This document shows positions 36,289 through 61,272 of a stretch of DNA of 64,000 nucleotides, one piece after another. This DNA is from Bacteroidia bacterium. GTDB taxonomy: Bacteria; Bacteroidota; Bacteroidia; J057. Made by a program: the position numbers and the translations under genes. The stretch lies in assembly GCA_030430575.1 (NCBI GenBank), contig JAUIKF010000012.1:62001-126000 (forward strand). Reading direction: 5' to 3'. Position 1 is the first letter of the stretch, and each line of letters opens with the position of its first letter. The notes under the pieces were generated by a model, which had not been told where the DNA came from, did no database searches, and worked only from the letters and a program-made list of their open reading frames with translations.

Positions 36289-36385
36289 GTTTTCAAAATC
36301 ACAAGTTGTTTTTAATTCATTCTTAAGTTCCCAAAAGAGAAATAGTTGATTAGCAATTTGATTGATATTTCCTGACTCTATACTT

Positions 36386-38191: not shown

Positions 38192-39955
38192 ATGGAATCA
38201 CAGTCTACTTCTCGCTGGAAAAACCGTTTAATAAACCTTTCTATCACCTTAGGGACCTGTCTGATTCTATTTGTTATTTACTTGATTGTTTTCAATAATT
38301 ACAAAAAGAATTTAGCGGATTATAAGTGGTTGACTAGGGGCACTAAGGAGCAAAAAGAAATAGCCCCCTTAACCCAATATGATGAAGTTCAATTGGGATT
38401 TGTACAATCCCTTAATCACCTCCCTAATAGTTCATATTTGAATCTTCCTACAGAAAAACCAAATGGAACTTATAGGATAGGCATTTTTGGGTGTTCGTAT
38501 GTGCGAGGAGTAGGAGCAGCTCAGGGATATGATTTCCCTTCTCATCTACAGAAAAAATACCAGGATATTGGAAGTGATAGTATAGAAGTAATTAATTTTG
38601 GAGTAGGTACGTATGGCATGAATCGCGCATTCTATATCTGGAATCGCCTAGCCAAGCTGTATGAATTGGATGTGGTGATCTTTAATATACACAGGTTTCA
38701 TTATGAACGAGACCGTACGTTCATTTTTAGACAGGATAGTTATGGACCTATCCACGGAAGATATATTCTTGAAGATGGGAAACTCAAGTATATTGCTGCA
38801 TTAGGAGATAGTCATGCTGCAGCATCTGCTGGCTATTATTCACCGATTCCTGCATGGCAATATTGGAGATATGAAGCCAAGACGCCTGCTCCTTTCCGGG
38901 CGTTTTTACCAAAAGGCAGAGAACTAAAAAAGAATCCCTTTTATTACCACCCTGATCCTGAATCAGAATGGAAAGCCTTATATGCTGCTATCTTTGATTC
39001 TGTGGCAAAGGCTACTCCTAGATTAATCTTGGCTGTAGGCGATAAGCAAACTTTAGGGTTTGTTGAACACCTCACAGCAAAGAATATTGAAGTTCTCCAC
39101 ATGAAGGCCCATGAGTTAAAAAGGGAATACAAGTCTATCTATGAAGCATTTGATCGGCATCCCAATGGTTTAGGGTATCAACTGATCGCAGAAGAGCTGT
39201 ATGCCTATCTTCTTGATAGCACTAATATCCAATTACCTGTTCTATCTTATGGTAAACAGCGACTCATGTCCACCGCCTTTCATGAAAATTGGGGAAATCT
39301 TATAGAGGTCCAAAAACTGTACTTGGGGATAAATGGTGAAGAACTAGCAGTTTTTACAAATAGTAGCTTGACATTAAGAAATCGTGGCAAACGCGATAAG
39401 ATAATCATTTCTGATTTTGATGAATTAGGGGTAAAATCATTAATCTGTGTTCATACAGGAAATGATTACCGATTTATTCCTTTTGGTGAGTCTTTGACCC
39501 AAAAACTCAATATGACCCTTCAGTTTGATGAAGATGGTCAGGAGAAGGTACATCACCTGACAGAAGTAGTTCCTGTAACTCCATTTTGGGGCTTAACAGA
39601 TTCGCTGAATTTGGTATTTAAGGTAGATGAGAAAAGGATAAGATTGAATCTTGGAAGACGCAAACCCTTAATTGTCTTTTCCCAACAAAAAAACATCTCC
39701 AAACTAACTATTAAACTGGGACAGACCACTATTATGGAGGGAAAGCTTGAAAGCACAAAAGGCGGTAGCCAGTGGTTTACCCTCACTCCGACAATTGCCC
39801 CAATAATAAATTTAAGAGGATCATTGGATCAAAAGATGGATGTGAATAAGATTCCATCTAGCGGCATGATAGATTTGATCATTAAATACAAAAATGGCAA
39901 AATGAAAGACATACCTTTTACGAGCTATCAGGTGGATACTTTAAGAGTAGAATAA
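38192..39955 (+). CDS. Membrane-anchored SGNH/GDSL-like protein, paralogue 2
   Basis: 587 residues; tandem duplicate of the 36386 gene, 45 bp downstream. TM helix LINLSITLGTCLILFVIYLI; block I is GIFGCSYVRGVGAAQGYD (GCS instead of GGS, Ser kept); FGVGTYGMNRAF; DRHPNGLGYQLIAEELYAYL keeps the D-x-H pair. C-terminal beta domain conserved in layout. Divergence between the copies suggests separate substrates. Confidence 0.78.
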   Translation: MESQSTSRWKNRLINLSITLGTCLILFVIYLIVFNNYKKNLADYKWLTRGTKEQKEIAPLTQYDEVQLGFVQSLNHLPNSSYLNLPTEKPNGTYRIGIFGCSYVRGVGAAQGYDFPSHLQKKYQDIGSDSIEVINFGVGTYGMNRAFYIWNRLAKLYELDVVIFNIHRFHYERDRTFIFRQDSYGPIHGRYILEDGKLKYIAALGDSHAAASAGYYSPIPAWQYWRYEAKTPAPFRAFLPKGRELKKNPFYYHPDPESEWKALYAAIFDSVAKATPRLILAVGDKQTLGFVEHLTAKNIEVLHMKAHELKREYKSIYEAFDRHPNGLGYQLIAEELYAYLLDSTNIQLPVLSYGKQRLMSTAFHENWGNLIEVQKLYLGINGEELAVFTNSSLTLRNRGKRDKIIISDFDELGVKSLICVHTGNDYRFIPFGESLTQKLNMTLQFDEDGQEKVHHLTEVVPVTPFWGLTDSLNLVFKVDEKRIRLNLGRRKPLIVFSQQKNISKLTIKLGQTTIMEGKLESTKGGSQWFTLTPTIAPIINLRGSLDQKMDVNKIPSSGMIDLIIKYKNGKMKDIPFTSYQVDTLRVE

Positions 39956-39972: not shown

Positions 39973-41943
39973 ATGATGACATCACAAGAACATATACAAA
40001 TAGTAGTAGCTGCCGATAAACACTATTTTGTACCCCTCTATGTAATGCTCTTTTCCTTATTAGAAAATCGAAAAAGTGCCCACCCTATTGTTATTTCCCT
40101 GATTTCCAAAGACTTTATCCCATCCCAAAAAGACCGATTAAATGACCTAGTGCGTGCTTATCCTCATGCTAGTTTTTCGTATCTCCAATTAGAGAAGTCA
40201 GCCTTCTCTCATCTGGATCAGCAGATGCCTGCCTTGAGTGAAGTGACTTATTTCCGTTTGATGATTCCAGAGCTGTTAGGGCCTGAGGTAAAAAAAGTCA
40301 TTTATTTGGACAGTGACATGCTGGTGTTAGACGATATTGCGCAGTTATGGGAAATAGAGTTAAGTGGGAAAGCGTGTGGGGGAGTGCCTGAGCATTATAC
40401 CTTTATGCCTAATACAGATTCACGCAAGGCACATTTCATGAAATTGGGCTTGCCATCAGATGCTACCTATTGTAATGGAGGCGTACTAGTCATGAATTTG
40501 GAGGTATGGCGTAAGGAAAACTTGGGACAAGCGTGTATTAACTTCTTAAAGGACTTCCCAGAACGTGTTACCTTTGACGACCAATGTGCCCTCAATTATG
40601 TACTTCGAGGCAAATGGTATTACCTGCCTATTAGATGGAATGTAACCAATATCTGGTTCCGCTTTAGGGAAGAGATAGCAGATCGACCAGAGTTTCAGGA
40701 AGCAATGGCTGGGGCTATTCTTCACTATACCACTGCCTCCAAACCCTGGCAAGCCAGTTGTAAACACCCTCAAAAAGCCCTTTTTGAGAAATACTATGAG
40801 CAGTCCCCCTTATATGAACAGATGGCAATTGGGGTGGAAGATAAAGAGATTCGCGAAGGGGTTTCGCTGATATGTGTTGTTAGAGATTCCAATTTTTTGG
40901 GGAAGAGTCTCGTCAATTGGAGTCAATTGTCAGAAATTGATGAGATCATTTTGATAGATGGTTCCGGTGAAGAAGCTTGCTATAAATTGGTAGAAGAAAA
41001 TTCAGTTGAAAACATAGTTTATGTCAGGGTCGCGAATCCCGGGGAGGTTTCCGATCCTGCATTGATCAACTTGGCTATAAGGATAAGTAGACGTAAAAAA
41101 ATACTCAAGGTGGACGCAGACTGTATCATCCATCCTCCTTTTTTTGAAACGCATCTATTAGCGGGAAAGTGTTTTTTTTATTTGTCATGGTGGGAGAATT
41201 TATTAGCTACAAAGACCTATCAGGTGACGTGCTTTTTTGCTTTTCGTAAAGACCTTATGTCCATGCAAGGACTGCATGAGCAGCTAAGTCAATTAGAGGC
41301 TGCTGCGCATTTGTTCCAACGCTTGCAACTATCTGGGCTCGCCAGTTCTCTCCTAAATTCGCACTATATGGCTTGCCTTGATTCCTCAAGGCTGCACTTA
41401 GAAGCCTTCCAGCCTTTTCCAGCTTTAGCGATTCCAATTTTACATATAGGGCACAAAGATTACTTATTCGCCTGTAAGTCTAGGGGCCTTGCTAAACTAC
41501 TTCCCTGGGATCTTTTGACTCCTTTTACTTCTTATAAACTCAATACTTCGTCAACCAATACCTGGGATGCAATAGCGTATTGGCCCAAAGACCATCCGCA
41601 ACCTCCTCCTCTCGACCTCCTAAAGCTTGAAAAAGAGACATTGATCGAATGGATTAATCCTTTTGGAATTCCCGAATGGAGCGGAAAGACTGGACGAGAA
41701 AGTTTGGATGATACAGACCTTTCCCTTTCATTTTTTACCCCAGAACGGCTGGAAAAAATGACTATAAAAAAACTGACTCAAGAGTTTCAGACAAATGAAA
41801 AGGCAACCCTTGGGCAGGTCCAGCAGGAATTGGAAGCCGTCTATCAATCTTATTCTTGGAAGATTGGGTCAAAATTGATTAGCATTGTGGCAAAGACCAT
41901 AAGCTGGTTTCCATATATAAAGCGAAGAATCTCCCCAAAATGA
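39973..41943 (+). CDS. GT8-family glycosyltransferase with C-terminal GT-A-like half and tail tag
   Basis: 656 residues. GT8 domain (1-270): IQIVVAADKHYFVPLYVMLF, TYFRLMIPELLGPEVKKVIY, LDSDMLVLDDIAQLW (DxD), YCNGGVLVMNLEVWR and DDQCALNYVLRGKWYYLP. Residues about 290-600 are a second, GT2-like region (SLICVVRDSNFLGKSLVNWS; KVDADCIIH). The end is a tail SYSWKIGSKLI...FPYIKRR after a Gln/Glu-rich helix. A retaining plus an inverting transferase on one chain is plausible. The stop overlaps the next start (ATGA). Confidence 0.87.
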   Translation: MMTSQEHIQIVVAADKHYFVPLYVMLFSLLENRKSAHPIVISLISKDFIPSQKDRLNDLVRAYPHASFSYLQLEKSAFSHLDQQMPALSEVTYFRLMIPELLGPEVKKVIYLDSDMLVLDDIAQLWEIELSGKACGGVPEHYTFMPNTDSRKAHFMKLGLPSDATYCNGGVLVMNLEVWRKENLGQACINFLKDFPERVTFDDQCALNYVLRGKWYYLPIRWNVTNIWFRFREEIADRPEFQEAMAGAILHYTTASKPWQASCKHPQKALFEKYYEQSPLYEQMAIGVEDKEIREGVSLICVVRDSNFLGKSLVNWSQLSEIDEIILIDGSGEEACYKLVEENSVENIVYVRVANPGEVSDPALINLAIRISRRKKILKVDADCIIHPPFFETHLLAGKCFFYLSWWENLLATKTYQVTCFFAFRKDLMSMQGLHEQLSQLEAAAHLFQRLQLSGLASSLLNSHYMACLDSSRLHLEAFQPFPALAIPILHIGHKDYLFACKSRGLAKLLPWDLLTPFTSYKLNTSSTNTWDAIAYWPKDHPQPPPLDLLKLEKETLIEWINPFGIPEWSGKTGRESLDDTDLSLSFFTPERLEKMTIKKLTQEFQTNEKATLGQVQQELEAVYQSYSWKIGSKLISIVAKTISWFPYIKRRISPK

Positions 41944-43181
41944 AATGGTCTGATATAGACACAGCAGAAAAAGTTGAATTCATCCCTGATGAAGCTGTAT
42001 TTGCTTATATTGAAAAGCATACAGAGCACCTTTCCGGACCAGAACGTGTTCAGACGACTGACGAAGAAGTAATTGTGCTTTGCCAGGTCAAAAATGGGCT
42101 TCCTTATTTAGAGGAGTTTTTATCCCACCATAGAACCTTAGGCGTAAAGCATTTTTTCTTTTTGGATAATGGCTCACAAGACCCAACTGTCCCTTATCTT
42201 ACTTCTCAAGAGGACGTTACCGTTTTCCGATGTCTTCTCCCCTTTAAAGTCTTTAGGGTTGTATTTAAACGATTTCTCATCAACCGCATATCGACCGACC
42301 AATGGGTATTGTTACTCGACATAGATGAACTGTTTGATTTTCCCTTTTCTGAAAGCATTTCTCTTGCCAGTCTCCTGGCCTACCTCAAAACCCACCAATA
42401 TTCAACTGTAGTCACTCAGATGCTGGATTTGTTTCGCAAAGATAAAGGGGGCAATTTGGATAAGGCGCCCTCGTTTAAAGCATCGAATCGCTATTATGAA
42501 TTGACACACCTAACCAGAAGACGCTATTTCTGTCCCAATGAAGCGAGCAACCCTGCTATTGCCTTTTTTCATGGAGGGATACGGAATAGAGTCTTTGGAC
42601 TGGATGGCGCTTACCTGACAAAGCATGCTTTGTTTTGGGCAAGTGAAGGGATTCGCTTAGATCATGATCATTGGGTAAAAGGGGCAAAAGTTGCCGACAT
42701 TTCCGCAGTATTGTACCATTACAAATTCCTGGACCATTTTCCTGCCTATGTACGGGAGGCTGTGGAACAAGAATACCACTATGGGAATTCTGTAGAATAC
42801 AAAGCCTATTTTTCTAAACTTGAAGAGGGGGAGAATATGAACCTTTGGAGTGATAAAAGTCAGGAACTCTTACAGGTAAATCAGTTGATTTGGGATCAGT
42901 TTCTTATCGTATCAGCACCTTATATTGAACATGTGATGGGACAATTGGAACATCAGTGGGCGGAAAAAGGGGAAGCTTTTATCGGTCAATTGATAGCCAT
43001 TACGGGGAACCAACAGGTACATATAATAAAAGACAATCTACCCTATCAAAAGGCTTCTAACTCAGGGGAATCCTACCATGAAGCGTACTTGGAAGCGATG
43101 GGGCAATTGAAACATATTCGCCAATCGTACTCATGGCGACTGACAGCTCCTTTGAGAAGAATTGGGGGATGGTTTAAATGA
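41940..43181 (+). CDS. GT2/GT92-type glycosyltransferase (PF13704-like) with tail tag
   Basis: 413 residues. VIVLCQVKNGLPYLEEFLSH, FFFLDNGSQDPTVPYL, WVLLLDIDELFDFPF (DxDE) and RLDHDHWVKGA fit the family that elongates surface glycans. C-terminal tail LKHIRQSYSWRLTAPLRRIG (about 391-410) follows a short helix. Translationally coupled to the upstream GT8 gene by an ATGA overlap. Confidence 0.88.
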   Translation: MKWSDIDTAEKVEFIPDEAVFAYIEKHTEHLSGPERVQTTDEEVIVLCQVKNGLPYLEEFLSHHRTLGVKHFFFLDNGSQDPTVPYLTSQEDVTVFRCLLPFKVFRVVFKRFLINRISTDQWVLLLDIDELFDFPFSESISLASLLAYLKTHQYSTVVTQMLDLFRKDKGGNLDKAPSFKASNRYYELTHLTRRRYFCPNEASNPAIAFFHGGIRNRVFGLDGAYLTKHALFWASEGIRLDHDHWVKGAKVADISAVLYHYKFLDHFPAYVREAVEQEYHYGNSVEYKAYFSKLEEGENMNLWSDKSQELLQVNQLIWDQFLIVSAPYIEHVMGQLEHQWAEKGEAFIGQLIAITGNQQVHIIKDNLPYQKASNSGESYHEAYLEAMGQLKHIRQSYSWRLTAPLRRIGGWFK

Positions 43182-43336: not shown

Positions 43337-45250
43337 ATGGCCCTCCCCTCTTCATTTCTCAATCAATACTTTGACCACATATATGTGCTCAATCTCAGGC
43401 GACGTGTGGACCGAAGGATAGAAATGAACAATAAGCTCAATTATCTAGGTATCAAAGCAGAATTTGTGGAGGCTGTAGATGGCTATTCCCCCCTTCCCCT
43501 TTTGGAATATGAAATCTTCGCTAGTCAACCCATAGGGGGTAAAGGGAGCCATCCACTAGAATACCATCGCAAACGCAAGGCCATTGAAAATGCGGGAGCC
43601 TGGGGCTGCCTCAAAAGTTATTTGGGAATGATAGAAGATGCCAAAAATCGAGGCTTTCAACGCATTTTGTGTTTGGAAGACGATGCGGTTTTTCACAGAG
43701 ACTTCGAAAACCGATTTCAACAAGCTATCAGCGTCATTCCTCCAGATTGGAAGCTACTTTACTTGGGGGCTACTCAACGTTTTTGGGAGGTTCCAATAGG
43801 CTTAGCCTACCCTGATAAAAGCAAAATTGAGTTTGACCCTCTCGCCGCCTACTACCTTCCGAAAAAGACAAATGGGTCTTTTTCGATAGGTCTTCACGCT
43901 TCAATATTTGATCTTCTGATTCAGGAAATCCTAAAAATGAATTGTGCCTTCGACTCTGGGCCCTTAAGGGCCGTAAGCGAAGCCTATCCGGAGGCGAGCA
44001 TTGTGCTTTATCCCAATCTTATCATAGCTGATGTCACAGATACCGATATTCGCGGAAAGCGAGATCAGCAAGCATTGGCTGAGAAAGTGAGATGGAACCT
44101 CTCAGATTATGATTTTCAATTTCAATTGAAAAATAGAGAGTTGCCCACTTCCAATAATTTACCAATCATGAAAAAGCTGGAATATCGTCAACACAGAAAT
44201 ATATTGCTGGAAGGATACAAAACGATTTTTTTCATTCTCTCCAAAAACGGATGCTCTTCCATCAAATCTCAACTACTTGAACCCTTAGGCATGGAGGATA
44301 AAAGTGAGGATTTATCCCAAGATATTCATCGTCCAGACTTATACCCATTCCCTTTTGCCCCTCATGATGAACTAAAAACCACCTATAACGACTATATTAA
44401 ATTTACCATTGTCCGGAACCCTTGGAGCAGGTTGGTTTCGTGCTTTAAGGACAAAATTCGGCCTGCGACCTATAATGAAGCAGGATATAAAGACGGAGTA
44501 GCCATGCCTCTTCAGCGGTTTGACGTTTTTTATGGAGGAATGTCTTTTGAGGCATTTGTAGATGCCGTATGTGAGATTCCAGACGCGGTGGCAGATCACC
44601 ATTTCCGATCTCAGGTGTATCAGCTAATTGATGATGAGGCGGAATTGGTGGTCAATTATATTGGGAGGCTGGAAACGCTGGAAGTTTCACTTCAGGAGAT
44701 TTCTCAAAAAACAGGTCTTGAGTTTTCTGCCCACTTTCATATAAACAAAACTTCTCAAAAGCCTTATCAGGCATATTATACTGAGGAACTAAAAGCAAAA
44801 GTCCAGAAACGCTTTTCTACTGATATTGCCTTCTTGGGATATACCTTTGAGGGTCAAGAGGGCCTACCGACCATTGGGATGATTGACGATGCCTGGCGTG
44901 CGCATTTTTCCCAAAAAAATCTTCTGAACCATATCTTAAAAGAAAAAAACAGAGAATTGGGGGCAGAAGTCAATTCTTTGAATAGGGAAAATGAAAAGCT
45001 GGCTCAATTGAGACAAAAAGTTGATGGCCGAAATAAAAAGATGGCTGAGACTATTCAGCAGCTTAAAAAAACCAACCAGAATTTGAGGGCAAGGCTCGCA
45101 AAAGCTATTGAGTCCCAGATCAAACCGTTGACCCAACAACTGGCCCACGAAAAGACAGAAAATGAGAAGATCAAAAAATCCCTTTCCTGGAGAATAACAG
45201 GGCCTCTGCGGAAGATAGGGTCACTTTTTAGCCTCAGAAGAAATGATTAG
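43337..45250 (+). CDS. GT25 - sulfotransferase fusion protein with coiled coil and tail tag
   Basis: 637 residues. Residues 1-265 are GT25 (LPS galactosyltransferase-type): FDHIYVLNLRRRVDRRIEM, GAWGCLKSYLGMIEDA, ILCLEDDAVFHRDFENRF, DWKLLYLGATQRFW. Residues about 285-515 are a type-2 sulfotransferase domain: TIFFILSKNGCSSIKSQLLE (PAPS loop variant without the usual Lys-x-x-Gly-Thr-Ser) and FTIVRNPWSRLVSCFKDK, INKTSQKPYQAYYTEEL. A coiled coil (about 525-600) and tail KKSLSWRITGPLRKIGSLF end the protein. A sugar-adding and a sulfating activity on one chain is inferred. The next sulfotransferase gene overlaps it by 8 bp. Confidence 0.87.
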   Translation: MALPSSFLNQYFDHIYVLNLRRRVDRRIEMNNKLNYLGIKAEFVEAVDGYSPLPLLEYEIFASQPIGGKGSHPLEYHRKRKAIENAGAWGCLKSYLGMIEDAKNRGFQRILCLEDDAVFHRDFENRFQQAISVIPPDWKLLYLGATQRFWEVPIGLAYPDKSKIEFDPLAAYYLPKKTNGSFSIGLHASIFDLLIQEILKMNCAFDSGPLRAVSEAYPEASIVLYPNLIIADVTDTDIRGKRDQQALAEKVRWNLSDYDFQFQLKNRELPTSNNLPIMKKLEYRQHRNILLEGYKTIFFILSKNGCSSIKSQLLEPLGMEDKSEDLSQDIHRPDLYPFPFAPHDELKTTYNDYIKFTIVRNPWSRLVSCFKDKIRPATYNEAGYKDGVAMPLQRFDVFYGGMSFEAFVDAVCEIPDAVADHHFRSQVYQLIDDEAELVVNYIGRLETLEVSLQEISQKTGLEFSAHFHINKTSQKPYQAYYTEELKAKVQKRFSTDIAFLGYTFEGQEGLPTIGMIDDAWRAHFSQKNLLNHILKEKNRELGAEVNSLNRENEKLAQLRQKVDGRNKKMAETIQQLKKTNQNLRARLAKAIESQIKPLTQQLAHEKTENEKIKKSLSWRITGPLRKIGSLFSLRRND

Positions 45251-49178: not shown

Positions 49179-49925
49179 TCAAGTAATTCCAGGATTTTCT
49201 GTAGTTAGAATAGGATTGATTCCTGCCTGGGGTAGGTATACCAAGTTCTTGCTCCGCCAATTGATCAGCCTACGCTGCTTTTCATAGGCCGGAGCCTTCT
49301 CCGCCGTGAAGGGGTGACGGGGGTGATACAATTTAAGGGAAGGCTCCCACTGAATCGCTAATCCATAATTCCGAAAGCGCGTGTATATATCACGTCCATT
49401 GGCGTGAAAGCCCGTCTCAAAAATCGGCGTCTGATCATATCCATTGATGGCTAGCAGCCATTTTTTTCGGACGGTGAGGCAGCCACCGTAATTGGTGGGA
49501 TTGGTGATGACACATTTTTGTTTCAATTCCTCAAAATTGTGGCTATGGAGGGGGTTGTTTTCCACCTCATTGTATCGGTAGCCGTATGTCACAAGTTTGT
49601 CATAGGCTTGGTGAATATCCCAGACTTTTTGGATAAAATCAGGCTCCACAATGACATCCGCATCGGGAATGATTATCAATTCTCCCTGAGCCTGTTTGAT
49701 GCCTTCATTAAAACAATATGAGGAGTGATATATGGTGTCTGGTGGATTCCCAATACAGATCGTTTTTAACCTTTCTTGATAAGATAATTCAGGATTGGCT
49801 TTTTGATAAAACTCTACCCAAATCACCTCAAAATCCTCCTTCGGAAAATCCTGTTGACAAAAATAAGTGGCTCCAAATGTATTTTCCCTAAAGGAGCCAT
49901 CAATCATAATCACACTTATTTTCAT
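49179..49925 (-). CDS. GT2-family glycosyltransferase
   Basis: 248 residues. ISVIMIDGSFRENTFGATYF (atypical start: MIDGS in place of IPTYN), EVIWVEFYQKANPELSYQE, CFNEGIKQAQGELIIIPDAD (DAD as DxD) and NGYDQTPIFETGFHANGRDI. A short enzyme with a complete GT-A core. It lies between a sulfotransferase gene (1 bp upstream) and the unknown 298-aa gene. Confidence 0.87.
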   Translation of the reverse strand: MKISVIMIDGSFRENTFGATYFCQQDFPKEDFEVIWVEFYQKANPELSYQERLKTICIGNPPDTIYHSSYCFNEGIKQAQGELIIIPDADVIVEPDFIQKVWDIHQAYDKLVTYGYRYNEVENNPLHSHNFEELKQKCVITNPTNYGGCLTVRKKWLLAINGYDQTPIFETGFHANGRDIYTRFRNYGLAIQWEPSLKLYHPRHPFTAEKAPAYEKQRRLINWRSKNLVYLPQAGINPILTTENPGIT

Positions 49926-49926
49926 A

Positions 49927-50505
49927 CTAAAATGTGTAGCGGTATTTTTCTATATCCAATCGATACATTTTATAGACCATCTCCTTGGTCTGCTCATCGT
50001 AATAGGGCCGATAATCTACTTGTCTCGCTGTTTTCCGCTTATGGACCTGGGGATCAAGCGCAATGCCTGTCGTCTCTGCAATATGTGCTAAGTCTTCAGT
50101 TCTATGCTCAAACCTCCCTATAAAATCCACTCCCTCTGTATTGAGGTATTCATAATAATATTTTTTTTCCCAATCAGGAGGTTGATAATGGTGAAGGAAA
50201 TACGCAAGTGGCTTCTGAGAGAGCTGGTTTATGTTGCTAAAATAAGGTTGTTGATACAGTGAAATTATCCTGTCCCAGGGGTTTCTGACAAAGGAGAATA
50301 CAAACGCATTTTTCCAAGCTGCTTCTCCTACTCGCCTTTGGAGATCCTTAGCAGTAAGGTGTTTTTCATCATTTCCCAACTGAAACCCCAATGCCGCCTC
50401 TATACTTGTACCCCCTGTCCGGGGAATATGGATAAAAATCAAATTTTGATAGATCAATGAATTACTTCTTTTGGTTTTTAAATTTGTGAGATAGCTTATT
50501 TGCAT
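49927..50505 (-). CDS. Sulfotransferase (sulfotransferase family 2 type)
   Basis: 192 residues if ATG 50505 is used, which overlaps the upstream giant gene by 44 bp; TTG 50457, four bases after that gene's stop, would give 176 residues and still include the whole domain. LIFIHIPRTGGTSIEAALGF (PAPS loop), FSFVRNPWDRIISLYQQPYF (3'-PB) and GVDFIGRFEHRTEDLAHIAE are clear. The start is unresolved. Confidence 0.88.
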   Translation of the reverse strand: MQISYLTNLKTKRSNSLIYQNLIFIHIPRTGGTSIEAALGFQLGNDEKHLTAKDLQRRVGEAAWKNAFVFSFVRNPWDRIISLYQQPYFSNINQLSQKPLAYFLHHYQPPDWEKKYYYEYLNTEGVDFIGRFEHRTEDLAHIAETTGIALDPQVHKRKTARQVDYRPYYDEQTKEMVYKMYRLDIEKYRYTF

Positions 50506-53500
50506 GGGGAAAAGGCGCGTTAGGAATCGGTTTTTCCAAAAACGCACAAAGCTTCTCCCAGCCATTTTCTTTTGTAATATCAATCTTCAATAGCTTTTCA
50601 GCGGGTTTATCTGCAAAAAATCGATTGACACGCTCGTCAAATGCGTGGTAGGCTGCTTCCCAATTGGGATACTGCGTGTACAGGCTACCATAAGCTGCTT
50701 GATAGATGGGATTATAGTCATGATACAGTTTGTCTAATAGCCCACTTTCACTTTTAGGTTTTGCTAGCCAAGCCTTGAATTCTTTGGTAGTGGTAAACCC
50801 ACGCGGTCTGTAGAGGTTACTACTAGACCTTACCCAGTCTGTGAGATTTCGCTCAGTATAGATGAATATGGCATTGGGGAATAGCGCATATAACTCTTCA
50901 AATCTATAGGAAACAGGAGAATCTGTAAAGGCATCGTAGTAGTAAAAATCCTCCAGGTCCAGGACTTTACGGGTAATGGGATTGATAAAATGGATCACTG
51001 CATATCCCAGGATATTCAATGCGTCAGTTAGAGAAGTCGTTCCAGTCCTGCTCAAGCCAATCCCAAAGACTTTGGGTTGTGCATTTCCCGCACCTCCAAG
51101 ATAGTTCTTTTTCCAGGTCTTGAGCAGTCTGAGAATATAATTGGGGTCTTCTATCTGGGTAGAAGATTGAGTCGGAACTGGAAAGTCTACCATGAAGTTG
51201 CTAGCACGCTCATACTGACGCGCACCAATTAGTGCTTGAGCCAAAAGGCGTTGTACATCCTTTGAGCGCGGGAATTGAGAATAAAGATTCTCAAGCAGTG
51301 TGATGGCTTCATGGTATTGTCCCGCGATGATCCATAGTCCTGCCTTGAAGACCGAGGCGTTATGGCTGCTCCCATGATGAGCCATCATGGCATCTATGGT
51401 TTTGATTCCAGCATCATATTGGGCATGGTTTACGAGAAATTTTGCTTTACGCCTATAGCTAGATTTGGCATGTGTTTGAGCAATAGATTGATTTAACCAG
51501 GAAAGGGCCTCTTCACGTTTATATTGGGCAATTGCCATGGAAGCCATACCCTCATAACCCATGGGGTCTGTGGGATTTACTAAGAAGGATTGAAAGATGG
51601 GTTTTGCAGCGTCAAACGCGCCCAAATTGACCATAGCAAGGGCTGATTCAAATAGAGCCTGGGGATTTTTGGGAAATAATGTTAGGACCTTTTGCCACCT
51701 TTCTTGAGCAAGAGACCATTCTTTTCTCCTGGCGGCGATCGAAGCCATCCCAATATGTCCCTGAGGGCTTTGGGGGAAATCCTGGATCAATTTCTCAAAT
51801 ATTTTGCTCGCGCTTTTATAGTATCTTCGGGATAATAATGATTGGCCGATTAAATTGTATAGTTGTTTTAAATAGGCAGGCGGTTTAGGAGAATTAGTAA
51901 ATACTCTTGTCTTGAAATTTAACCAATAATCAACCACGCTTCCCACATCCAGTGCAATCCCTCCCTTTTGTTTAATGAGATGGCAATATATTTTCCCCAA
52001 AAAACCCGCAGCTACAATAAAAACTTCTCCAGGACCATCGACTGTTAATCTTTCACAGATATCCTCAAATTGCTTAGGGAAATGTGGGCTATCGGTAGAG
52101 GCTGACAATCCCATTTGCTGGGCATATTTATTTTCAGGTGGGAGGTGGAAAAATTTCTGGACATGGATGCCATGTTGTTCTTGGAGAAGGTGAGGCAACG
52201 AGTCATGGCAAGAAATGAGTGAGCAGGATTTTATATTATCTAAAATTAGATTCCAAAAACCTAGTTCTTCAAGCTGGGTATGAATATGACAGGAAGTAAG
52301 TAAAGGAAGACGAGGAGTAACCGTTTTATGGTGTGATTCCTTAAAAGATGCCTGCTTAATCACTCGATTGATAACTGCCAAAAGCCCTCTACTTTCGAAG
52401 GATTCTCCTGCTTTATCTCCTTGGGACCTTAAGGCCACCTTACTACATCTGATCGGATCAGGAATACCGATAATATCTGCTTGTTCCAGGGCGGCTAAAT
52501 ACTGTGGCTCGATTTTTTCCCACGCCTCTGAAGACATTTGGCCTTTTCCCCACCAAATTTTTTGACTGATCAATTGATCAGCTTTCTGAGCATGTCTTTT
52601 CTGCTCATCATACGGTAAGAAATGCCCCTCCCCATCTCCTAGCCTAATCAGGGAATACGGCGTCTTTGAGTTGATATGCGAAAGGATATGATCGACTACG
52701 AGATAGCATTCGATAGGGGAAGTGGCAGTATTTAGATAAACCTGAGGGTACTTTTCTGCCAAAAGGCTAAATTTTTCAAACGCTTCCAGTAGCCAATTCT
52801 CAGACTGACCATGTGCTGGGTGTGCTAGCACAAGAGGCTTAATTTCTTGTAATACAGGGGAGATTGGGGCATATTCTGCGCCATCTAAGCGGGCCTGGAA
52901 ATTAGGCATATTTAACGCTTGCACATGTTTGATTTTTTCCCGCTCAAACAATAACAAAACATGTGTCACCAGATGGTGTTTCAGTGCTTTTCTTTTAAGT
53001 GTTGTATCAATAAAAGCCTCAGCTTTGTGATACTTCCCCTGGTTGACTAATAAATGGCAATACGCCATTACCACATCTCTATTTATGTTCCGAGCACCTT
53101 TGACTTCTTTAAGAAAGGATTCAAGTTTATCGATTTTATTCTGAATAAGTAATATGTCGATATATGGCTTGGCAAATTTGGGATAGATATCTGGCTTAGT
53201 GAAATCCCATTCAGGCTGAATCAATTCATAAATTGTATGAGCCTCATGATAATTTCCCATGAGCCAATAATTATAGGCATGTGCCTGCTTGAGCTGGAAG
53301 TGATGAGGATATTTAGATAAAGCCCCTTCTAATACTGCCTGGGCAGCTTGGTAGTCATACTGATGTTGATAACTCTTAACTTCACCTAACATCATCTCTA
53401 TTTTTTTTTCTATAAGCTGAGTTTGTGGAAACTCAGCTTGACTAAGTATTTTTGAGGGTATTTTTACTGATTTTTGTTTGGTCGTTTTTTTTATTGTTGG

Positions 53501-54247
53501 CGAAAAAAGCCTTCCAGCCTGTTTGTGCACTTTTTCCCACCACCGTACAGGTGTTAGTATCCACTGTATCGCTCGCCAGGATTTACTGGCGTAAATTGCG
53601 TCTAACTCATGTCGAAGTGCTTGCGCTTCGTCTGTAGGATTTTTGCGATTTTTCCACTTTTGTTCGGGATGTACATTAGGGATTTGGTTTCGGGAATAGT
53701 CCATCTGGTTTTGATGAGGAAAAGCGATAGAAGGAATCCCTTGCCCTAAAAATGGACAAAGTTTTTCCCATCCTTCCCCATCACAAATATTGATGATCAG
53801 TAAATCCCCTGGCCGGTCTTTAAAATATGCTTTCACCTCTTCTTCATGCTCATAATAGGTTCTGGTGAACTGTTTCTCATCAAAATACCAACTTCCAAAA
53901 CAAAGCTTGGTGTTGAACGATGGGAAGGTGGGGCCTACATTCACAAGGTGGTGTTGTTCCACACTTTTCAACCAACTATCGAAATCCCTTACCGTCAAGA
54001 CAAATTTGCTGTTTGGATAAGCTTTATCGAGTTCCTGATAGATGGAGGGAATGGGGTTATCCGTGATAGCATCATAATATTCAAGAAGATCTAGGGTAAA
54101 TTGATTTTGGATCAAATGCTGATTGATCTGGTCATGATCTTCCCAGTGAGAGGTACGGTATCCCAATATTTCTAGCGCCCCCGTAAGGCTAGTGGTGCCT
54201 GTTCGGCTCAACCCTATCCCAAAAACTTTATTGATCGGAGTTCCCAT
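50462..54247 (-). CDS. Giant double sulfotransferase with TPR and GT-D domains
   Basis: 1261 residues. Order: sulfotransferase 1 (1-205; KVFGIGLSRTGTTSLTGALE; KFVLTVRDFDSWLKSV); tail-like tag at 221-240 (SKSWRAIQWILTPVRWWEKV); TPR-like helices (about 285-435); GT-D-type domain (about 505-785; IRLGDGEGHFLPYDE at 534-548, ALDVGSVVDYW at 765-775) related to DUF1792 transferases; TPR repeats (about 795-1020); sulfotransferase 2 (1058-1261; VFGIGLSRTGTTSLTDALNI; FIYTERNLTDWVRSS). The two sulfotransferase domains are more like each other than like others here. It is predicted cytoplasmic, no signal peptide. Domain order inferred from motifs only. Confidence 0.85.
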   Translation of the reverse strand: MGTPINKVFGIGLSRTGTTSLTGALEILGYRTSHWEDHDQINQHLIQNQFTLDLLEYYDAITDNPIPSIYQELDKAYPNSKFVLTVRDFDSWLKSVEQHHLVNVGPTFPSFNTKLCFGSWYFDEKQFTRTYYEHEEEVKAYFKDRPGDLLIINICDGEGWEKLCPFLGQGIPSIAFPHQNQMDYSRNQIPNVHPEQKWKNRKNPTDEAQALRHELDAIYASKSWRAIQWILTPVRWWEKVHKQAGRLFSPTIKKTTKQKSVKIPSKILSQAEFPQTQLIEKKIEMMLGEVKSYQHQYDYQAAQAVLEGALSKYPHHFQLKQAHAYNYWLMGNYHEAHTIYELIQPEWDFTKPDIYPKFAKPYIDILLIQNKIDKLESFLKEVKGARNINRDVVMAYCHLLVNQGKYHKAEAFIDTTLKRKALKHHLVTHVLLLFEREKIKHVQALNMPNFQARLDGAEYAPISPVLQEIKPLVLAHPAHGQSENWLLEAFEKFSLLAEKYPQVYLNTATSPIECYLVVDHILSHINSKTPYSLIRLGDGEGHFLPYDEQKRHAQKADQLISQKIWWGKGQMSSEAWEKIEPQYLAALEQADIIGIPDPIRCSKVALRSQGDKAGESFESRGLLAVINRVIKQASFKESHHKTVTPRLPLLTSCHIHTQLEELGFWNLILDNIKSCSLISCHDSLPHLLQEQHGIHVQKFFHLPPENKYAQQMGLSASTDSPHFPKQFEDICERLTVDGPGEVFIVAAGFLGKIYCHLIKQKGGIALDVGSVVDYWLNFKTRVFTNSPKPPAYLKQLYNLIGQSLLSRRYYKSASKIFEKLIQDFPQSPQGHIGMASIAARRKEWSLAQERWQKVLTLFPKNPQALFESALAMVNLGAFDAAKPIFQSFLVNPTDPMGYEGMASMAIAQYKREEALSWLNQSIAQTHAKSSYRRKAKFLVNHAQYDAGIKTIDAMMAHHGSSHNASVFKAGLWIIAGQYHEAITLLENLYSQFPRSKDVQRLLAQALIGARQYERASNFMVDFPVPTQSSTQIEDPNYILRLLKTWKKNYLGGAGNAQPKVFGIGLSRTGTTSLTDALNILGYAVIHFINPITRKVLDLEDFYYYDAFTDSPVSYRFEELYALFPNAIFIYTERNLTDWVRSSSNLYRPRGFTTTKEFKAWLAKPKSESGLLDKLYHDYNPIYQAAYGSLYTQYPNWEAAYHAFDERVNRFFADKPAEKLLKIDITKENGWEKLCAFLEKPIPNAPFPHANKLSHKFKNQKK

Positions 54248-54250
54248 GAT

Positions 54251-55849
54251 TTATCTTTTAAAAATTTCTCCCAACCTCCGGAGAGGTTTTGTAATTCGCC
54301 AACTTATGGATTGTTGCATGGCGCGAAGTTGGGATTCGCAGATGTTTAAAGCCTGAAGTGCTTCGTCATAATTATCCTCATTCGAGGGAATTGGGGCATT
54401 ATCAATATTTTCAAAAGCATAAAAAGAGATTTTGGGATCATCATCTTCTGACCTTAGTTGGGAGTAATTGTAATCCCCTTTCCCCAATAGTCGGTTGCGG
54501 TAAGTTTCCTTAAAGGACACTATATACGCTTGTTTATCAAGGTATTCTACCGTCAAATTATCTTTTTGCCGTTTGCTGGCAATGCATAGAACCTCAGGGA
54601 TAAAGTCAAAAACCCCTCGGATATAGCTCGTTTTTTCAAGATACATTAAGGGCGTTTCCGGCCTTTCTCCAAAATGAATCCCCGTACGGTGATACAAGAT
54701 ACGCTCGATCATCTCGTAATCCTCCGCATAACGAGCATCCCAATATAGGCCCCATTTTTCAAACACTTCTTTCCGAAATACCGCCGTAGCTGGATAAATT
54801 CGCTCGCGATCGTCTCCCCACGGAAAGCCATCAGGCTTTGTACGTGTCCTGCTTCGGGCCAGATCAAGGTTATATGCTTCCGTTTCCAATGACAACTCTT
54901 CTATATAACAATGGCTGCGAATGACTCGCGCCAAGGTAAACAGAACCCCCTTATCATAGAAAGGAAGTAATTGTTTCACCAATCGATCCTTCATCATCAT
55001 GTCATCCGAATCATGAAAAGCGATAAAAACCCCTTTTGCAGCCCTGATTCCATCATTTCGTGCCAGACCTACTCCGCCATTCTCTGCCCTTTGAATTAAT
55101 CGAACGCGATCGTCTTCGGCCATTAGCCCCTTGATGACTCTTACAGTATCATCTGTACTGGCATCGTCTACGACAACAATTTCCAGCCAGGGATAACTCT
55201 GGCCAAGAGAGGATCGAATGGCCTTTTCAACTATGCCTGCCCGATTGTACACGGGCATGATGATACTCACCAAGTCTGGTTTGAATGGATCATCATACGC
55301 TGAAAGGTCTGGCTTTTGGGCAAACGCTTCAGCAAGGCCTCCGATTACCAATGGCGGTTCAAGTCGGGGGCATAGATCAGGATACACGCTTTTGATTTTT
55401 TGAAAATGAACAGCATCTAAAGTACCTGTGACTCGATCCATCATATCAAGTAATCTCTGAAAAATACTTAGATGGATGCCTACAGCAAAGGCACCGAGCC
55501 TTTTGGATGGCTGGCCATCTCCTGTTATGCCTTCGAAGAGATAGTCCCCTAAAAACAATAGTTTCCAGTCTTGAGGGACTGATCGAATCTGAACTGAGAA
55601 ACGATGGTGAAAGTCAGAGTGAAAAATATTATCATCCTGTAGCATCAAGATACGCCGATGGCCTTGGTGAAGGGCATTGGTGAGGACTTGGCGATGAAGG
55701 TCATTGAGGAAAGCAGGTTCCCTTCCTTCTATAATCATACCTTGTATGCCTAGACGATTAAGCTTTTGAAGAAAGAGCAGCTTCTGATGGGGATTCCATT
55801 TAGGACAAATCAGATAAATTTGGTCAAAATAAGTATGAAAATGATCCAT
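54251..55849 (-). CDS. GT25-like plus GT2 fusion glycosyltransferase with tail tag
   Basis: 532 residues from ATG 55849. Residues 1-185 are a shortened GT25-like region (FDQIYLICPKWNPHQKLLFL; RRILMLQDDNIFHSDFHHRF; VPQDWKLLFLGDY) similar to the N-terminus of the 43337 protein. Residues about 192-430 are GT2: LVSIIMPVYNRAGIVEKAIR, VVVDDASTDDTVRVI, LARNDGIRAAKG, FIAFHDSDDMMM. The end reads MQQSISWRITKPLRRLGEIF. The GT25 part lacks the usual NLDRRxDR motif and may be inactive or a docking module. Confidence 0.86.
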   Translation of the reverse strand: MDHFHTYFDQIYLICPKWNPHQKLLFLQKLNRLGIQGMIIEGREPAFLNDLHRQVLTNALHQGHRRILMLQDDNIFHSDFHHRFSVQIRSVPQDWKLLFLGDYLFEGITGDGQPSKRLGAFAVGIHLSIFQRLLDMMDRVTGTLDAVHFQKIKSVYPDLCPRLEPPLVIGGLAEAFAQKPDLSAYDDPFKPDLVSIIMPVYNRAGIVEKAIRSSLGQSYPWLEIVVVDDASTDDTVRVIKGLMAEDDRVRLIQRAENGGVGLARNDGIRAAKGVFIAFHDSDDMMMKDRLVKQLLPFYDKGVLFTLARVIRSHCYIEELSLETEAYNLDLARSRTRTKPDGFPWGDDRERIYPATAVFRKEVFEKWGLYWDARYAEDYEMIERILYHRTGIHFGERPETPLMYLEKTSYIRGVFDFIPEVLCIASKRQKDNLTVEYLDKQAYIVSFKETYRNRLLGKGDYNYSQLRSEDDDPKISFYAFENIDNAPIPSNEDNYDEALQALNICESQLRAMQQSISWRITKPLRRLGEIFKR

Positions 55850-55850
55850 T

Positions 55851-56714
55851 TTAATTCGAATAGCGTTCCCATTGATAAAGTAGGTTTTGAATCCCTTTGC
55901 GGGTGTTTTTGATCCATTTCTCATCCAATGAATCTCTCATCCAAAACTCCCTATCTGGCACCTTATCTGCTTCCAGAAAAGGCTCCATCATTGTCCCCGA
56001 AAAAAGGGTCTGAATCTCTTGGGCATTTTCCAGCCTTTCGTAAATATTGGAAGAATTTTGTTGGATCAACTTTTCTTTCAAAAGGGACTCTGGCATTCCA
56101 ACTTCTAAAAATGTGAAAATATCTGCCAAGGTTGACTGTGAAGGAAAATCTTCGGCAAATAAGAGAAAGTATCGATGACCAGCTTGTTGGAGCTGTTTAA
56201 GGAGTGTTATGTATAAATTAAAATTCCACAAATAATTCCTCAAGAATTCTTTAGGTGAAAGGACTATTTTATGTTCTTTTCGTTCTTGGCCTTTGAGCAG
56301 AAACCATTGTTGGGTCTGTTGTGCAAAAACCATGGAAGAATAGGTAAAAAGAAAATTCCTTATAGGAATGATTTTTTTTATGTAGGAGTTCTTGCCTAAG
56401 TAAGGGATTAATTCGTCACGTTGAGCAAAAAGGAGTTTAAATCCAACTATCTGGTCTTCAAGGCTTTTTTGATAAGCAAATACTTCATCAGTGTATTTAA
56501 ATGGTCGTTGATCCCTGAATTTTTTATCTACTATAAATGTTAATTTTCTATCAAATATCTCTTTTGGATAATTTGTGTACACAATCCGCTTTTTATTAAA
56601 CAATTCTCCATGACATAAAATCTTATCATGCTGATTTAAGTAGGAAACAAGGAGATTAGTCTTACTTCGTGCCGTCCCAATAATGACAAAGTTGTCGCTA
56701 GCCTTTTTGAACAT
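55851..56714 (-). CDS. Stf0-like sulfotransferase-family protein
   Basis: 287 residues. FVIIGTARSKTNLLVSYLNQ, then ILCHGELFNKK, is the Stf0-type PAPS loop region; IIPIRNFLFTYSSMVFAQQ is a candidate 3'-PB, though the Arg-x7-Ser pattern is weak. First gene of the minus-strand run, one base before the fusion glycosyltransferase. Divergent from the GT2 gene at 56772. Confidence 0.72.
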   Translation of the reverse strand: MFKKASDNFVIIGTARSKTNLLVSYLNQHDKILCHGELFNKKRIVYTNYPKEIFDRKLTFIVDKKFRDQRPFKYTDEVFAYQKSLEDQIVGFKLLFAQRDELIPYLGKNSYIKKIIPIRNFLFTYSSMVFAQQTQQWFLLKGQERKEHKIVLSPKEFLRNYLWNFNLYITLLKQLQQAGHRYFLLFAEDFPSQSTLADIFTFLEVGMPESLLKEKLIQQNSSNIYERLENAQEIQTLFSGTMMEPFLEADKVPDREFWMRDSLDEKWIKNTRKGIQNLLYQWERYSN

Positions 56715-58677: not shown

Positions 58678-59712
58678 ATGAAAAATATAGCAGACGTTAA
58701 TCCGTGCAAAGTCGAGATTGTCTTACATGAATACAAAGACTTAGTGCTTCCATTTGGCGTGGTTGGCCAATTCAAAGTCGCTAATTTGCCCCCTAATTCA
58801 CAATACCGAACCTACTTGAAATTTCAAGCAGTTTATTACCCTACGCCTTTTCAAGACTGGACCTATGCAAAGACATTTAACATGTTGCCTGAATCTCCTG
58901 GCGAATACCAATTGTTCCTTGAGTATAGAGGTCGCGATATCATAGGCAAAACAACACTTGCTTTCAGGGTAACTTCAGATGTGAAAAACACTACTCAACC
59001 TACCCTTTTTAAACTGAAGGGTAGAGCAAAAATGTGGGTGCCGAGCACATGGGAACAACATTTTTTTCATAGTCATGAACAAACTGCTTTGAATAAGCTG
59101 ATTGACATCATACAGCCAGGATGGACTGTGTATGATATAGGAGCAAATATTGGGTATTATGCCTATTATATAGCGAAAAAAGTAGGGGATAGAGGACATG
59201 TATATTGCTTTGAAGCAAATCCCTTATTGGCATATTTCACCAATGCCAACTTTGAACAGAATCGTATTCAAAATGCTTCTGTGATTCCGCTTGCCATTTG
59301 TGATTCAGAAAGACAGGTAGATTTTCGGATCAATTATGGAAACTCTCTCATAGGGAGGGGAGATGATTCTGCACCTGATCAACTAAAAAATGGGCTTTCC
59401 TTAAAAGTATGGGGGAATAGTCTTGATGAAACGGTAAAACAATTTGGACTTAACAAGCCTCAATTGATCAAAATAGATATAGAAGGGGCTGAAGAATTGG
59501 CACTCAAAGGAATGCTCAACATACTTAGAAATGTTCGGCCTATCATTCTCTTGGAGGTTCATGGTGGGAAACTAGCCCAATCCTGCTTGACATTGTTAAA
59601 GGACCATCAGTATGTATTTGTCGATGCAATTACAGATGAAGCGTATACCTATGAGGAAGCAGTCAATAAAATCAAAAGACAACGATTAGGGTTATTTTTT
59701 TGCTTCACGTAA
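58678..59712 (+). CDS. FkbM-family methyltransferase with N-terminal beta domain
   Basis: 344 residues from ATG 58678; ATG 58648 adds ten residues. Residues about 1-110 form a beta-sandwich-like unknown domain (VEIVLHEYKDLVLPFGVVGQ; SPGEYQLFLEYRGRDIIGKT). Residues about 140-344 are the SAM-dependent FkbM domain: TVYDIGANIGYYAYYIAKKV, GHVYCFEANPLLAYFTNANF, LIKIDIEGAEELALKGMLNI, PIILLEVHGG. It probably O-methylates a sugar. Overlaps the Wzt gene end by 21 bp, convergent. Confidence 0.85.
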   Translation: MKNIADVNPCKVEIVLHEYKDLVLPFGVVGQFKVANLPPNSQYRTYLKFQAVYYPTPFQDWTYAKTFNMLPESPGEYQLFLEYRGRDIIGKTTLAFRVTSDVKNTTQPTLFKLKGRAKMWVPSTWEQHFFHSHEQTALNKLIDIIQPGWTVYDIGANIGYYAYYIAKKVGDRGHVYCFEANPLLAYFTNANFEQNRIQNASVIPLAICDSERQVDFRINYGNSLIGRGDDSAPDQLKNGLSLKVWGNSLDETVKQFGLNKPQLIKIDIEGAEELALKGMLNILRNVRPIILLEVHGGKLAQSCLTLLKDHQYVFVDAITDEAYTYEEAVNKIKRQRLGLFFCFT

Positions 59713-60474
59713 TTCTCTACGCTCCTTTGCCCTTTTCTTCATCAATTCCTCATATACAGGTAAAACCTCTTCGGTTTTACCCCTTGTCACTTCTTTACCT
59801 TCGTGAAGAAGGACTACCCAGTCCGCATACTTTTTTAAAGGCTCCATCTGATGACTGGCATAAATGATCGTCTTCCCAGCCAGCAATTGATCCTTAAAAA
59901 CGGCATCAGATTTCTTCTTGAAGTTGATATCTCCAACTCCCCCAAAAAACTCATCGATCATCAAGATGTCTGTCTCAGCGTGGATGCCTACACCAAAAGC
60001 AAGCCTAGTCCGCATCCCTTTTGAATAGTATTTTACTTTGGTATCTACAAAATCCTCCAGCTCTGCAAAAGCGATGATTTCGTGAAATTTCTGTCCAATC
60101 TGTTTGAAGGATAGGCCCAAGAGTGAGCCGTTGACATAAATATTTTCGCGCGCTGTCAGGTTGGGGTCAAATCCCAGTCCAAGCGAAAGCAGGATGATTT
60201 TGCCTTGGGTCTGGATGATGCCTCCTTTATCAGGACGCATTGCGCCTAGGATCACCTTCATCAGGGTAGACTTCCCCGAGCCATTGTGACCGATCAGGCC
60301 CACAAACTCTCCTTTCTTGATAGAAAGGTTGATGTCTTGCAGCGCCTTAATCGTATGTAACTGACCTTTTGACCCCAGGTTAAAGATCGTATCACGGATG
60401 GAATCCGAGGCACGGTCTGCGACGCGAAAGGTCTTATGGACGTCTGATATCTTTATGACTTCAGGAGTCTCCAT
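59692..60474 (-). CDS. ABC transporter ATP-binding protein (Wzt/KpsT-like, short form)
   Basis: 260 residues. Walker A in VGLIGHNGSGKSTLMKVILG, signature YYSKGMRTRLAFGVGIHAE, Walker B ILMIDEFFGGVGD, H-loop YASHQMEPLK. N-terminal KISDVHKTFRVADRASDSIR is typical of polysaccharide exporters. It lacks the C-terminal carbohydrate-binding domain of long Wzt proteins, so end-cap recognition is not encoded here. It directly follows the permease gene. Confidence 0.93.
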   Translation of the reverse strand: METPEVIKISDVHKTFRVADRASDSIRDTIFNLGSKGQLHTIKALQDINLSIKKGEFVGLIGHNGSGKSTLMKVILGAMRPDKGGIIQTQGKIILLSLGLGFDPNLTARENIYVNGSLLGLSFKQIGQKFHEIIAFAELEDFVDTKVKYYSKGMRTRLAFGVGIHAETDILMIDEFFGGVGDINFKKKSDAVFKDQLLAGKTIIYASHQMEPLKKYADWVVLLHEGKEVTRGKTEEVLPVYEELMKKRAKERRELREAKK

Positions 60475-61272
60475 CTATATTTTTTCCAAAACTTTATGTG
60501 AGTATTTTCTTGACACAAATATGCCTATTCCCACGATCACCAATGCATACAGAAGATCATATACTAATAAGCCCATGTCAGGTAAGCGCCCATATACCAG
60601 CACCTCCCGCGAATTGAATAGGATTCCCACCATAGGGCTGAGGTATTTTGCAATGGGAATCACCCCTTCAATCATCTCGATTGTGAAGAAGATAGGATGG
60701 GTAAAAAATCCTGCCAGCATCACGATGTCCCAGACATGGGCTATGTCTTTGAGGTAAATATTGAGGGTCGCCAGTAGTGCGCCTAGCCCCAGAATGATGA
60801 TAAACATATTGATCATCAATATCGGAATGAACAAGGCATTCCAGGTAATAGGCGGCCCAAATGCAATTTGAATGAGAAAATAAGCAGTAAAATTGAACAA
60901 AAAACCAAAAAGAGAACTAAAAGCCGAAGCTAGATTGAGGTCAAATTTATTAATCTGTATGCTCTCCAATAAATACCGCTTGGAGTTATACACATTAATG
61001 GCACCCACTGTACCCTCAGAAAAAAACATCCAGAAAATCAGACCCGAAAACAGGTAGAAACCAAACTCTGGGATTCTGTTTTCATAAATATAGGTGAAGA
61101 AAAAAAAGTAAATCACAAACCGCATCAGCGGATTGATAAAGGCCCATACCACGCCCAGGCGGCTATTGTAATAGCGCTTCCAGAAGTCTACTTTGGCCAG
61201 AATCCACAGGCGCTCCAGCCAGTTGTTTTCGGGAAGTCTTTCAAGGACAGGTTTGAGTAATTGATTCAGCAT
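60475..61272 (-). CDS. ABC-2 type polysaccharide export permease (Wzm-like)
   Basis: 265 residues, six TM helices. WILAKVDFWKRYYNSRLGVV, WAFINPLMRFVIYFFFFTYI, FYLFSGLIFWMFFSEGTVGA and HVWDIVMLAGFFTHPIFFTI match O-antigen/capsule permeases. Its stop is followed immediately by the ATG of the ATPase gene. It probably moves the finished, modified glycan across the inner membrane. Confidence 0.92.
   Translation of the reverse strand: MLNQLLKPVLERLPENNWLERLWILAKVDFWKRYYNSRLGVVWAFINPLMRFVIYFFFFTYIYENRIPEFGFYLFSGLIFWMFFSEGTVGAINVYNSKRYLLESIQINKFDLNLASAFSSLFGFLFNFTAYFLIQIAFGPPITWNALFIPILMINMFIIILGLGALLATLNIYLKDIAHVWDIVMLAGFFTHPIFFTIEMIEGVIPIAKYLSPMVGILFNSREVLVYGRLPDMGLLVYDLLYALVIVGIGIFVSRKYSHKVLEKI

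Follow-up and report, generated by a model that had tools for sequence, protein, structure and literature searches.

Introduction

In streptococci, dGT1 joins a DUF1792/GT-D domain (PDB 4pfx, 4phr) to a GT-A domain in one chain (PMC5063993), and its acceptor is the glycan of a serine-rich adhesin. DUF1792 is reported to coordinate Mn2+ via an Asp-X-Glu (DXE) motif, which the GT-E enzyme TagA lacks (PMC6493773). Fusion of a sulfotransferase with a different glycan-modifying domain is known from N-deacetylase/N-sulfotransferase (NDST; PMC13353177). Few sulfotransferases of bacterial sulfated polysaccharides have been characterised, and sequence alone seldom tells which sugar is modified. Here, we analysed a 64,000-nucleotide stretch (the window) of a Bacteroidia bacterium genome (GCA_030430575.1, contig JAUIKF010000012.1, positions 62,001 to 126,000), in which a single open reading frame (ORF) at 50462..54247 on the minus strand encodes a protein of 1261 amino acids with two sulfotransferase domains, a GT-D-like domain and tetratricopeptide repeat (TPR) solenoids. 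In relatives, these pieces occur as individual proteins, and the sequence comparisons therefore identify the window protein as a recent gene fusion, the end of a stepwise series. It is real and uncommon, yet assembled from known parts via an identifiable fusion.

The central domain resembles that of dGT1 in its predicted fold, in its DXE motif and in sharing a chain with further glycan enzymes. It differs in showing about 15% identity, in having no match to PF08759 (DUF1792) and in being set between TPR solenoids and sulfotransferases, and the acceptor of the window protein is not known to be an adhesin glycan. NDST follows the same principle of fusion with an unrelated partner domain and origin, and homology to it is not claimed. 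The sulfotransferase domains belong with the Sulfotransfer_4 family (PF17784, hereafter ST4; members include SmSULT-OR and SgdX2), whose profile they match far over the cut-off and whose binding motifs for the sulfate donor 3'-phosphoadenosine 5'-phosphosulfate (PAPS) they have in common; what sets the window protein apart from this family is that two non-identical copies are fused in one protein of a glycan cluster.

Domain organization of the fused protein

The ORF (54247..50462) is free of internal stops and reads, from the N-terminus, ST4, linker, TPR, GT-D-like domain, TPR and ST4. All domains lie on the minus strand: the N-terminal ST4 (residues 7–182, 53702..54229), the first TPR solenoid (residues 283–495, 52763..53401), the GT-D-like domain (residues 500–782, 51902..52750), the second TPR solenoid (residues 790–1040, 51128..51880) and the C-terminal ST4 (residues 1059–1250, 50498..51073). 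This content and order, proposed for the chain by a first-pass annotation, were confirmed by Pfam searches and AlphaFold2 (AF2) models. The annotation had set the TPR scaffolds between sulfotransferase domains at the two ends; the ends were as described, but the N-terminal one does not lead straight into the TPR, with a segment of about 100 residues (183–282, 53402..53701, minus strand) lying between. TPR models scored well above the cut-off in the Pfam search, chiefly at residues 800–1020, and the N-terminal TPR-like helices (residues 283–495) were visible in an AF2 model of residues 283–1261, which leaves residues 1–282 outside and predicts a helical solenoid on each side of the GT-D domain.

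For the central domain, the profile PF22882 (GT-D-like) matched residues 517–599 (6.2e-8; 32.7 bits against a cut-off of 27), covering only the N-terminal part of the profile. The two motifs cited by the annotation, RLGDGEG and DVGSVVDYW, were present as RLGDGEGH at residues 535–542 and ALDVGSVVDYW at residues 765–775 (DVGS at 767–770). R-L-G-D-G-E-G-H was unchanged in all seven homologues aligned, and D538-G-E540 within it constitutes the DXE metal motif. A sequence search of the PDB with the GT-D profile gave nothing significant, so a fold comparison was needed. A model of residues 480–800, built with six homologues, was predicted with a pLDDT of 84 and a pTM of 0.86. In this prediction, set beforehand as the refuting test for a GT-D fold, DUF1792 structures ranked first: three of them were the top three Foldseek matches (E 6.6e-4 to 2.6e-3), and the VIA comparison gave them Z scores of 11.9–12.4 (best alignment, Z 12.4 over 214 residues, rmsd 3.6). 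Because DUF1792 came first in both fold comparisons and the DXE motif is invariant, the model supports placing the central domain among GT-D-fold transferases, outside PF08759, with glycosyl transfer as its predicted activity.

Two sulfotransferase domains of different lineage

The PF17784 profile matched the whole protein at 1e-77, with the best stretch at residues 7–181 and a second at approximately 1059–1250; as single domains, these scored 135.1 and 129.6 bits (cut-off 22.8). Both domains keep the PAPS motifs, namely the P-loop (5'-phosphosulfate loop), the TD-P aspartate and the RD/RN-W-S 3'-phosphate motif: SRTGTTSL (14–21), TDNP (62–65) and RDFDSWLKS (from 87) in the N-terminal domain, and SRTGTTSL (1066–1073), TDSP (1108–1111) and RNLTDWVRS (from 1133) in the C-terminal one. 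Both also match solved family members significantly by sequence, including SmSULT-OR and SgdX2, and for the N-terminal domain 9kf1. Neither domain looks degenerate, and sulfotransferase activity is predicted for both.

The two domains are 36–40% identical to each other. The N-terminal one shows 73–75% identity to a stand-alone ST4 (73% in the alignment of residues 7–182) in a sister genome of the same genus (G001), and the C-terminal one shows 68–71% identity to the ST4 of a TPR-GT-D-TPR-ST4 protein in that genome. In an ST4 tree, from which L036 (not a true ST4) and L056 (long branch) were excluded, the C-terminal domain groups (support 100/100) with TPR-ST4 proteins from a further Bacteroidia genome and from the cyanobacterium Moorena, and the N-terminal one pairs with the sister stand-alone protein. 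There are exactly two ST4 matches in the window's genome, both in this ORF, and exactly two in G001. The comparisons thus make the two domains old paralogues, a pair that predates the fusion. Internal duplication of one domain, or symmetric caps, was ruled out by tree, orthology and synteny, the two not being each other's closest relatives. The first-pass description of two similar sulfotransferases capping the chain therefore stands as to family and similarity, and the symmetric design or origin that it implied falls: the N-terminal domain was recently a separate gene, and the C-terminal one was already part of an older TPR-GT-D-TPR-ST4 protein.

Stepwise history of the fusion

In G001, the orthologues of both parts are unfused and lie on different contigs. 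The TPR-GT-D-TPR-ST4 orthologue is a separate protein of 1028 amino acids (L024 7065-10151), syntenic with the window protein and of the same order over 960 residues at 45–47% identity; unlike the window protein, it is without an N-terminal ST4 and has about 100 extra N-terminal TPR residues. Conservation between the two is higher in the catalytic domains (52% in GT-D, 68% in the C-terminal ST4) than in the TPRs (29–37%). The stand-alone ST4 of G001 forms a contiguous triplet with a sulfotransferase-like and a GT25-like/GT2 gene, and the stretch read there holds no large glycan cluster. The counterparts of these two genes in the window adjoin the fused ORF at 54251..55924 and 55851-56714.

The cluster around the G001 TPR-GT-D-TPR-ST4 gene contains homologues of the window GT2 gene (56772), the ABC (ATP-binding cassette) exporter (59692, 60475) and several of the 36362-45250 genes. 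In the window, the triplet is placed between this GT2 gene and the TPR-GT-D gene, and its last gene is fused to the latter, so that the seam falls exactly between the two G001 loci. The seam (residues 183–282) consists of a former ST4 C-terminal tail (SKSWR at 221–225, TPVRWWEKV), at which the G001 stand-alone homologue stops, and an A-rich, Lys-rich linker of about 40 residues. The linker (129 bases) was open in about 4% of composition shuffles, and its other two frames carry several stops. It contains an 11-bp perfect inverted repeat (hairpin; 53414..53439, no strand assigned; z -2.9) that is single-copy in the window. By alignment, the TPR part begins about 100 residues later than in relatives, with an N-terminally shorter first solenoid.

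In a third Bacteroidia genome (L025), TPR-GT-D (682 amino acids) and TPR-ST4 (425 amino acids) are separate genes, and in Moorena (L026) they are separate neighbours. As these more distant relatives carry the parts apart, the series is most simply read from sequence as an ancestral state of separate genes that gave rise first to a two-part fusion and later to the three-part one in the window. The comparison supports that the older TPR-GT-D-TPR-ST4 protein gained the formerly separate ST4 at its N-terminus when the two loci met, the first enzyme losing its stop and the second its N-terminal TPRs.

Two side observations concern these loci. The G001 triplet (L046 = G001:C75:105001-125000; L048) stands by itself, with a DNA methylase, a helicase-like gene and, judged by eye, possibly phage-like genes close by, so the three-gene glycan cassette may be mobile. 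A C-terminal tail, S-W-R-(I/L)-T-x-P-L-R, is common to window genes 41940-43181, 43337-45250 and 54251-55924, L025 3935-5776 and L046 18775-19827, with a diverged version internal in the fused protein; it may serve docking to a common partner or to the membrane.

Distribution of the GT-D subfamily

About 85,000 species genomes were scanned with two peptide patterns, a search that divergent relatives can escape, and six relatives of this GT-D were found. None of the six carries an N-terminal ST4, the N-terminus of L028 being unseen as its contig begins inside the gene. Among 395 class-level and 395 phylum-level genomes, the full GT-D domain occurred in the window's genome and G001 only (2 of 22 genomes within the order), with one further genome holding a fragment at a contig end. 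Viral contigs contained no GT-D relative of this subfamily. Alphaproteobacterial plasmids carry distant relatives (27–32%), among which, for the part read through, none with ST4 was found. The full order was seen in no other genome searched, and no described enzyme with it was found in the open PMC library, in agreement with the first-pass claim of novelty. Such a scattered distribution is suggestive of horizontal transfer.

In Moorena, Roseomonas and Caulobacteraceae, TPR-GT-D proteins of the same subfamily continue into a P-loop domain with sulfotransferase-like motifs that differs from that of the window protein: it is not ST4 and matched no Pfam family and no PDB chain. From its motifs, this domain is a probable sulfotransferase. 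Because these lineages use a different P-loop domain, this GT-D may have become coupled to sulfotransferases on more than one occasion. The domain (about 250 amino acids; L026 8901-9680, L027 8862-9641, L028 1229-1978) has conserved GHPRCGSG, YVRxPxDAxxSI and FRRxHIL motifs.

Separately, Sinorhizobium meliloti Rm41 pSymB encodes a 1024-amino-acid protein (L052 6721-9795) that carries a GT-D of this subfamily at its C-terminus and whose N-terminal part matches no Pfam family; it lies near a Capsule_synth gene and is a possible new capsule enzyme fusion.

Alternative explanations

Several points weigh against reading the protein as a composite enzyme. The full fusion was found in one genome only, leaving fixation and advantage unproven, and the A-rich seam might carry an error of assembly or base calling. 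The ST4 portion of the 283–1261 model is of low confidence. The profile searches recovered Sulfotransfer_4, TPR and PF22882, but PF08759, expected by the first-pass annotation, had no Pfam match in the protein nor anywhere in its genome, so that the sole GT-D family profile matched is PF22882, and that partially. When the GT-D alignment was compared by hhalign with one PF08759 protein, the C-terminal signature alone was aligned, at low probability. Together with the Z score of up to 9.8 for TagA/TarA (9.3–9.8; unrelated folds, 3.6), the missing PF08759 match would suit a GT-E (TagA-like) or inactive relative acting as a binding module rather than a sugar transferase. We consider this improbable, given that DUF1792 came first in both fold comparisons and that the DXE motif separating GT-D from TagA is invariant in the homologues.

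The seam raises two further questions. If a deletion or rearrangement joined the N-terminal ST4 passively, by chance, the parts would act independently on different substrates with no coupling; the restriction to one genome, the intergenic look of the A-rich linker with its hairpin and the location of the G001 ST4 triplet on another contig than the cluster would fit such an event. Yet pairing of GT-D with a sulfotransferase-like domain recurs (ST4 in this genus, the other P-loop domain in Moorena, Roseomonas and Caulobacteraceae), TPR-ST4 adjoins TPR-GT-D in Moorena, and every catalytic motif is intact in the fused protein, so passive joining appears unlikely while still deserving serious attention. 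It is very improbable that adjacent ST4 and TPR-GT-D-TPR-ST4 genes were read as one through a stop lost by sequencing or assembly error: A runs abound in the seam and both component proteins are separate in G001, but, with a linker open in so few shuffles and stops in its other frames, a chance join is possible and not likely.

Proposed function

The domains, predicted fold, motifs, fusion history and context are supported by the data. On balance, the protein is probably a composite glycan-assembly enzyme, built up by successive gene fusions within a cluster for a sulfated polysaccharide (or glycoconjugate). It is most likely a cytoplasmic multifunctional enzyme that adds one sugar to an exported glycan and sulfates it at two positions; donor, acceptor, sulfation sites, TPR role and any channelling are what we infer. 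In the cytoplasm, the Mn-dependent GT-D domain, through its DXE motif, would add a hexose from a nucleotide sugar to the growing glycan, and the two ST4 domains would use PAPS to sulfate the added sugar or its neighbours, probably with different regiospecificity because they come from different lineages. The TPR solenoids may hold the acceptor or partner enzymes ahead of ABC-type export.

The fusion probably points to enzymes cooperating in one pathway, and would hold enzymes that already share it at a fixed stoichiometry and close together. Sugar addition and double sulfation by one protein, as the first-pass annotation proposed, is plausible, and nothing in our analysis supports its other suggestion of two-sided action on a repeat unit. 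A true one-chain assembly line, in which the TPRs pass the bound glycan between GT-D and both sulfotransferases so that each added hexose bears a defined double-sulfate pattern before export, seems doubtful. That one GT-D subfamily has been fused stepwise and repeatedly to sulfotransferases (two ST4 domains in the window protein; a different P-loop domain in the cyanobacterium and alphaproteobacteria) ties a sugar-adding step to its sulfation, which is a testable pairing. The case also shows, from members of a single genus, how glycan enzymes that were once separate grow into one large multifunctional protein.

Gene neighbourhood

The fused gene is surrounded by glycosyltransferases of several families, glycosyltransferase-sulfotransferase hybrids, sulfotransferases and an ABC exporter. 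Upstream, on the minus strand like the other neighbours in this paragraph, lie the GT25-like/GT2 enzyme of the triplet (54251..55924; Pfam GT2 only, GT25-like by homology to neighbours) and the 287-amino-acid sulfotransferase-like protein (55851..56714; Sulfotransfer_3 match below the cut-off). Downstream are a Sulfotransfer_2 gene (49927..50457), whose L025 homologue (58%) is near the TPR-GT-D gene, and a GT2 gene (49179..49925), whose L025 homologue (70%) directly adjoins it. As the L025 homologue begins there, the TTG at 50457 is the most likely start of the Sulfotransfer_2 ORF, and a 122-base overlap with the fused ORF then vanishes. Eight of the nine Sulfotransfer_2 matches in the genome are on the window's contig. 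The ABC-transporter ATPase and permease (59692..61272), Wzt/Wzm-like by sequence, are 65% and 58% identical to those of the G001 cluster. The window's genome also has a gene for APS (adenosine 5'-phosphosulfate) kinase, an enzyme that makes PAPS and is common in bacteria; its presence shows only that the sulfate donor can be made.

Fusion of glycosyltransferase and sulfotransferase is recurrent in this cluster: a second hybrid of 637 amino acids (43337-45250), conserved in L025 12689-14560 (54%), combines GT25-like, Sulfotransfer_2 and coiled-coil parts. Two adjacent window genes (36362-38146 and 38192-39955) encode proteins of about 590 amino acids each without a confident Pfam family; they are 34% and 38% identical to one G001 protein (L024 11658-13646) and are probably a tandem duplication.

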